From Candidatus Bathyarchaeota archaeon (GTDB taxonomy: Archaea; Thermoproteota; Bathyarchaeia; Bathyarchaeales; Bathyarchaeaceae), in contig CP070754.1 of NCBI GenBank assembly GCA_020348865.1, positions 160,780 to 205,907 on the forward strand: a stretch of DNA of 45,128 nucleotides, written 5' to 3'. Position numbers and translations under genes: made by a program. Below the pieces are notes generated by a model. It made no database searches, had not been told where the DNA came from, and saw only the letters and a program-made list of their open reading frames with translations. Below are positions 6,005 through 37,077 of the stretch, piece after piece (the stretch's first letter is position 1; each line of letters begins with the position of its first letter).

Positions 6005-6072
6005 ATGTATTCGTCTTTCCAGAATTGTCCATGCATTTTTGCTTCTAATCTGGATTCGAACCTGAATCACTA

Positions 6073-36978: not shown

Positions 36979-37077
36979 TGGTGCGGTCGCCGGGATTTGA
37001 ACCCGGGTGCTCGGCGTGGGAGGCCGAGGTCCTAACCAAGTTTTCCCTGGAGTTGTTCCAGTCTAGACTACGACCGC
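36979..37077 (-). tRNA. tRNA-Gly(CCC) with a 22-nt D-loop insertion
   Basis: The minus strand shows a full cloverleaf: acceptor stem GCGGTCG/CGACCGC, discriminator A and an encoded CCA (36979-36981), T arm CCGGG-TTCAAAT-CCCGG, anticodon stem TCGGC/GCCGA with loop CTCCCAC, so the anticodon is CCC (glycine). The D-arm stem (GTCT/GGAC) is intact but its loop contains 22 extra nt at about 37036-37057. Removing them leaves AGACTGGTTA, a normal D-loop, and a 74-nt tRNA before CCA. The insertion forms a small hairpin (CCAGG-GAAAA-CTTGG). It is probably an intron at a non-canonical position. TGG occurs at both edges, so the exact junction is ambiguous by a few bases. Confidence 0.88.

Follow-up and report, generated by a model that had tools for sequence, protein, structure and literature searches.

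D-loop introns have been described in two tRNA-Glu isoacceptors of Methanopyrus kandleri, where they occur in unspliced, edited RNA-Seq precursors (PMC3695527), and D-arm introns are known from tRNA-Glu(UUC) and tRNA-Glu(CUC) of Sulfolobus tokodaii and, analysed likewise, from tRNA-Thr(UGU) of Aeropyrum pernix (PMC4307357). Those of S. tokodaii tRNA-Glu were cut in vitro at a predicted structure resembling the bulge-helix-bulge (BHB) (PMC4307357). Crenarchaeal non-canonical tRNA introns with relaxed HBh' or hBH motifs span lengths of 11–129 nt (PMC4090602), and for 217 archaeal genomes the tRNAscan-SE 2.0 count of non-canonical introns is 673 (PMC8450103). A first-pass annotation of the locus described here had called D-loop introns rare, but introns in the D-arm are less exceptional than it claimed (PMC3695527, PMC4307357). 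Our search of a limited open-access literature found no paper on tRNA introns in Bathyarchaeota or Bathyarchaeia, and we do not claim that position 15/16 is unpublished.

Here we describe a tRNA-Gly(CCC) gene in the genome (G000) of an uncultured archaeon of this group that is very probably interrupted at position 15/16 by a 22-nt D-loop intron, removed by the archaeal splicing endonuclease. The D-loop intron, already proposed in the first-pass annotation, is much the best explanation, in view of a conserved insertion site, a covarying helix, the failure to find another copy of the gene and an endonuclease alpha subunit with the crenarchaeal-type loop.

An interrupted tRNA-Gly(CCC) gene and its relatives

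The window, by which we mean the whole stretch of 45,128 nt that was analysed (G000:C1:160780-205907), holds the gene and its predicted parts as follows.

36979..37077, minus strand: tRNA-Gly(CCC) gene in its precursor form with encoded CCA, 99 nt (77 nt spliced)
37063..37077, minus strand: exon 1, tRNA positions 1-15, GCGGTCGTAGTCTAG
37041..37062, minus strand: predicted intron of 22 nt at position 15/16, ACTGGAACAACTCCAGGGAAAA
36979..37040, minus strand: exon 2, tRNA positions 16-76, first bases CTTGG, with the exon junction as in the intronless gene of G032

Read from 37077 to 36979, the gene has the acceptor stem GCGGTCG/CGACCGC, discriminator A and anticodon CCC; the acceptor, anticodon and T arms show no irregularity, in agreement with the earlier description of an otherwise intact cloverleaf, and its D-loop carries 22 extra bases. 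ARAGORN called no tRNA in the window, and Rfam gave no match there at the gathering score, missing tRNA-Gly(CCC). A permissive Rfam search returned only a weak tmRNA-like match covering the 99-nt gene, with 14.3 bits against a gathering score of 47. In a whole-genome search the tRNA model, scoring 19.9 bits and so below its cut-off, aligned its positions 8-63 to just 49 bases of the gene. Once the 22 D-loop bases had been taken out, ARAGORN called a tRNA-Gly(ccc) of 77 nt, a regular mature tRNA, while it called no gene on the unspliced form, which bears out the reported 22-nt insertion within 36979-37077. As neither ARAGORN nor the Rfam tRNA model picks the gene up, GGG glycine decoding in the group would otherwise look incomplete. 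A group I or II intron was considered and rejected: the insert has only 22 nt and the window has no Rfam match at the gathering score, and the self-splicing core of such introns takes about a hundred nucleotides or more (PMC4033280). A T-arm-like match elsewhere, at window positions 6052-6062, does not resemble a tRNA.

BLAST against 61 genomes recovered the gene with its whole insert (97% identity, 103 nt) in G003, which is of the same genus yet assembled separately, together with long gapped matches in further genomes. Because this separate assembly has the same insert and the window contains not a single N, the insert is no assembly accident. A helicase gene adjoins the tRNA in both the window and G003, so the neighbourhood is common to them. 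Reading of the loci showed GTCTAG and CYTGG of tRNA-Gly(CCC) to be separated by an insert in nine genomes of the order, eight in one family (G000, 22 nt; G002, 35 nt; G003, 22 nt; G004, 32 nt; G007, G009 and G011, 31 nt each; G014, 33 nt) and one in another family (G042, 28 nt); the named relatives sharing this tRNA are Candidatus Bathyarchaeota records. When the order was scanned with the exact pattern, 18 of 162 genomes gave a match, and these by eye comprised eight Gly(CCC) genes, eight tRNA-Pro(GGG) genes with D-loop inserts and two with inserts elsewhere; G009, one base off the pattern, was found by BLAST. The inserts differ largely in sequence, G002 of the window's own genus having a quite different one, and have their ends in common, with A first and GGARAR ahead of CYTGG. 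These nine genomes are related, and their agreement does not amount to nine independent events.

The first-pass annotation had named a second, normal tRNA-Gly(CCC) gene as the finding that would make this one a pseudogene, and none was found by any of three approaches. The BLAST matches listed for G000 comprised this gene and tRNA-Gly(TCC); a T-arm pattern gave 56 matches in G000, with no further Gly(CCC) among those inspected; and an intronless Gly(CCC) pattern, absent from all nine genomes that bear the insert, matched in 71 of 162 (in G110 one of the hits is apparently fortuitous, next to a genuine one). G002 and G003 are well assembled (98% and 99%), so that the missing intronless copy is hard to blame on gaps there. 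Loss of Gly(CCC) might nevertheless be tolerated, because G000 has a tRNA-Gly(TCC), and sole-copy status is supporting evidence for function and does not prove it. A disrupted, dead copy of the gene would fit the silence of the standard tRNA finders; with all other arms intact, no other Gly(CCC) found in G000 and the insert site kept in six genera of the family and one genome of another, we regard that explanation as scarcely credible. Some of these related genomes have the intron and others lack it, so that its gain and loss can be studied across the set.

The G000 assembly (1.5 Mb, 92.1% complete) is a single piece with 100-N gaps inside it and is therefore probably a scaffolded metagenome assembly. 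Such gaps lie at 540-639 of locus L001, 1400-1499 of L019 and 1757-1856 of L245. The archaeosine transglycosylase gene of G000 breaks off at one of the 100-N gaps, only its first 87 model positions matching. No tRNA-Gly(GCC) gene turned up in the G000 matches to the tRNA model and the T-arm pattern that were inspected, and it may lie in a gap.

Insert boundaries and a relaxed, predicted splice-site motif

A legal D-loop results from either of two 22-nt deletions, 37041-37062 (position 15/16) or 37036-37057 (position 19/20), and the first-pass annotation had chosen the latter, placing the insert after CTGG. We scanned all splice-site pairs that leave a legal D-loop, scoring each on a 4-nt central helix H, an inner helix h' and an outer helix h. 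Position 15/16 ranked first in all eight Bathyarchaeia Gly genes that could be scored, although in G042 a second register equals it on the summed score; G004, whose D-loop ends in C, was left out of the scan and under a widened rule gave a best score of 9. The same position came first for a tRNA-Gly(GCC) of Baldrarchaeota and for a woesearchaeal tRNA-Pro, in the latter case tied on the summed score. It did not rank first in the aenigmatarchaeal and thaumarchaeal genes, for which reason the inserts of these two groups are suggestive only. The intronless ortholog of G032 (AGCTTGGCTA; reads GTCTAGCTTGGCTAGGAC) has the exon junction as predicted. From the relatives' sequences and the splice-site scan together, the insert is thus assigned to position 15/16, bases 37041-37062, in place of the earlier 37036-37057.

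We leave a small chance that the insert is an intron whose cut sites differ from 15/16, lying for instance at 19/20 or one base off. The 19/20 deletion in G000 yields a legal D-loop, AGACTGGTTA, with three of four pairs in H and an outer helix of four pairs, and predicted borders can be wrong, as for S. tokodaii tRNA-Met (PMC4307357). Boundary 19/20 was rejected all the same: in G000 it has no inner helix (h' 0), and its register is absent in the relatives other than G003, the inserts of those relatives lacking the 5' CTGG. The pairing of CTGG with CCAG that had been pointed out at the locus is real, and at position 15/16 it belongs to the inner intron helix CTGGA/TCCAG. The elements of the motif at 15/16 lie as follows.

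37065..37068, minus strand: helix H, 5' strand GUCU, which is the D-stem 5' strand (positions 10-13)
37062..37064, minus strand: 5' bulge AG|A with the predicted 5' splice site
37057..37061, minus strand: inner intron helix h', 5' strand CTGGA
37047..37051, minus strand: inner intron helix h', 3' strand TCCAG
37043..37046, minus strand: helix H, 3' strand, intron GGAA (like the D-stem 3' strand GGAC), 3/4 pairs with one G.A mismatch
37040..37042, minus strand: 3' bulge AA|C with the predicted 3' splice site

The bulge-helix-bulge search that had been recommended for this locus thus turned up a relaxed HBh' motif at 15/16, made of H (UCU/GGA, with one G.A mismatch), a 5-pair h' (CUGGA/UCCAG) and the bulges AGA and AAC. 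The strict hBHBh' motif (a 4-bp helix, two 3-nt bulges and both flanking helices) is not present in G000, where H has three of four pairs and the outer helix one pair. The G000 insert is accordingly of the relaxed-motif (HBh') kind and not a strict BHB intron.

The inner helix was compared across 11 sequences with the register fixed beforehand, the thaumarchaeal and aenigmatarchaeal genes, which have no h' of four pairs, being excluded from the count. All 44 cells for its first four pairs are base-paired; when the 3' strands were dealt among the sequences as a control, the mean was 28.0 and 1 of 5000 rounds reached as high. Setting aside the near-duplicates G003 and G011, 36 of 36 pairs are formed against a mean of 25.4, with 0 of 5000 as high. 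The pair types change among the sequences while the pairing stays, a pattern of compensatory change in a set that is partly related. In a second control each insert was shuffled 20000 times in the fixed register, success meaning that both H and h' were as good as observed. No success was seen for G000, G004, G007, G009, G011 or the Baldrarchaeota gene, and successes were few for G003 (1), G014 (2), the woesearchaeal gene (3) and G042 (10); G002 alone of the Gly(CCC) genes had a weaker result (200), and the thaumarchaeal gene, scored without h', gave 543. When any register was allowed, 2 of 5000 shuffles of the insert scored as high as G000. Because the register was fixed before the count and the sequences are partly related, these shuffle numbers are not readable as probabilities.

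Folding of the G000 precursor with ViennaRNA gave -37.0 for the HBh' fold, -37.8 for a D-arm plus hairpin and -39.9 for the optimum, with pair probabilities of 0.05-0.06 for H. We therefore rejected precursor folding as proof of the motif, the splicing fold not being preferred by energy. Since the intron segment GGAA resembles the D-stem strand GGAC, only one of the two, splicing fold or D-arm, can form at a time; the enzyme would have to select the splicing fold, or RNA modification and temperature may matter. The slight energetic advantage of the D-arm with hairpin would suit an insert that is never removed and forms an additional hairpin within a widened D-loop of the mature tRNA, as would the edited M. 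kandleri reads that retain a D-loop intron (PMC3695527). We consider such retention very unlikely, given that the ends of the insert are conserved while its length (22-35 nt) and sequence vary, that the spliced junction is present in the intronless ortholog and that a permissive type of splicing endonuclease occurs in the group.

The splicing endonuclease and the predicted route of removal

In G000 one endonuclease gene scored over the cut-off, of the alpha (catalytic) type. Its product aligns nearly end to end with the solved crenarchaeal-type endonuclease chains 2cv8, 3p1z, 3ajv and 2zyz, and with 1a79 only from residue 49. We take 2cv8 to be from Sulfolobus tokodaii, 3p1z and 3ajv from Aeropyrum pernix, 2zyz from Pyrobaculum and 1a79 from Methanocaldococcus jannaschii. 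Residues K39-P40-K41 of the G000 alpha subunit are aligned to K44-P45-R46 of 3p1z_B, within the crenarchaeal-type specific loop (here Lys-Pro-Lys). In the A. pernix enzyme, K44 of this loop carries the broad specificity (PMC6379350), and P45 and R46 are important (PMC12397907). A tRNA-Cys gene directly follows the alpha gene of G000 (G000:C1:388395-388855, locus L001).

Across the wider set, 60 of 61 genomes have at least one gene over the Pfam cut-off, and in 48 of the 61, counted from table rows, a strong (alpha) gene is accompanied by a weaker (beta) one, likewise over the cut-off. Both subunits are present in G002 and in G003. Comparison of nine alpha and nine beta sequences showed the motif [DE]H[AS]PY, with its histidine, in alpha and GKE[TA]A in its place in beta. 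The histidine of the alpha motif is presumably catalytic, which fits the alanine found there in 3ajv compared with 3p1z. On this sequence reading the sister genomes have a heteromeric endonuclease, because alpha keeps the histidine motif and beta is without the histidine.

A heteromeric enzyme had been named as a check on the D-loop intron, and for G000 itself the answer is divided: the alpha subunit with its crenarchaeal-type loop is there, but beta is seen only in the sister genomes. With respect to the broad-specificity (alpha-beta)2 type, then, the loop is aligned in the G000 alpha and beta comes from relatives only. The search over cut-off found no beta subunit in the G000 assembly, which has gaps. 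In G003 the beta gene adjoins hisS (from open frames, hisS being recognised by eye), the block syntenic between G000 and G003 ends before both genes, and hisS likewise has no match over the cut-off in G000 (best 30.7 bits). Since beta and hisS are neighbours in G003 and hisS too is without a match in G000, both were probably lost from the G000 assembly together with a missing contig. As an argument against splicing, the missing beta is weakened by this and not removed.

From the elements described, we infer cutting, ligation and the exact cut sites along the following route. In the precursor the D-stem 5' strand GUCU (10-13) would pair with GGAA near the intron 3' end instead of with GGAC (22-25). 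The resulting H and the intron hairpin CUGGA/UCCAG would form the relaxed HBh', with bulges AG|A and AA|C and no outer helix. An alpha-beta heteromer, composed of catalytic alpha with its crenarchaeal-type loop and structural beta, would bind the hairpin and H, and would cut within both bulges. A ligase would then join the exons to give the D-loop AGCUUGGUUA, after which the D-stem would be free to form.

Other tRNA inserts and comparison with known introns

Further inserts were noted in the course of the analysis. A Ser/Leu-like tRNA of G000 (locus L031, near G000:C1 1100861-1100878, minus strand) has, by eye, an apparent D-loop insert of its own at the same junction (UCCUAG), 23 nt long (UCAGGUAGGG), with a full 4-pair H of UCCU/GGGA, and it has further inserts too. 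Both tRNA-Gln genes of G000 and a tRNA-Glu-like gene (loci L028 at G000:C1:1485199, L027 at G000:C1:914332 and L209 at G000:C1:114124) show, again by eye, apparent inserts of ~20-30 nt right after position 8-10, beside the acceptor stem. The D-loop inserts of tRNA-Pro(GGG) in other families of the order (L072-L079, in G104, G111, G126, G127, G130, G137, G038 and G160) are mostly ~38-40 nt, shorter in G104, and use another splice register (a UCUA/UAGA helix by eye in G126). At or near the 15/16 junction lie a 30-nt insert in Baldrarchaeota tRNA-Gly(GCC) (L098), a 19-nt insert in Woesearchaeota tRNA-Pro(GGG) (L095) and one of ~13 nt in an Aenigmatarchaeota tRNA-Gly (L091). Four loci of Thaumarchaeota/Nitrososphaerales (L082, L097, L111 and L112) have a 12-nt D-loop insert after GTCTAG with a perfect GUCU/GGAC helix, and the same tRNA has another supposed insert in its anticodon arm.

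A tentative reading, which we think rather doubtful, is that introns of 12-35 nt, each with a GGAN-like segment that takes the D-stem 5' strand, have repeatedly landed just behind G15 in D-arms of the GUCUAG type. Such a landing site would span Bathyarchaeia tRNA-Gly(CCC), Baldrarchaeota tRNA-Gly(GCC), woesearchaeal tRNA-Pro and thaumarchaeal tRNAs, and the intron would act as a switch that holds the D-arm open until splicing. G15 is the archaeosine site (PMC11298593); because the intron abuts it, the switch might set the order of splicing and modification, and an intron placed beside G15 allows a test of whether splicing or archaeosine formation comes first.

Among described systems, the M. 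kandleri tRNA-Glu introns are alike in being archaeal D-loop introns and predicted substrates of the splicing endonuclease (PMC3695527); unlike the present case, they belong to tRNA-Glu of an unrelated lineage and are second introns beside a canonical one. The S. tokodaii and A. pernix genes likewise have a D-arm intron, and the S. tokodaii endonuclease (2cv8) resembles the G000 alpha. They differ in being other tRNAs, and the example border given for tRNA-Glu(UUC) lies at transcript bases 22-25, not at 15/16 (PMC4307357). With the crenarchaeal HBh' and hBH introns our case shares a missing or imperfect helix flanking a bulge; the crenarchaeal positions named in the review text include 20/21, 22/23, 25/26, 29/30 and others, 15/16 not being among them (PMC4090602). 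The G000 gene is thus a well-supported further example of the known D-arm intron type, to which it adds a well-resolved 15/16 case with an intron that borrows a D-stem strand.
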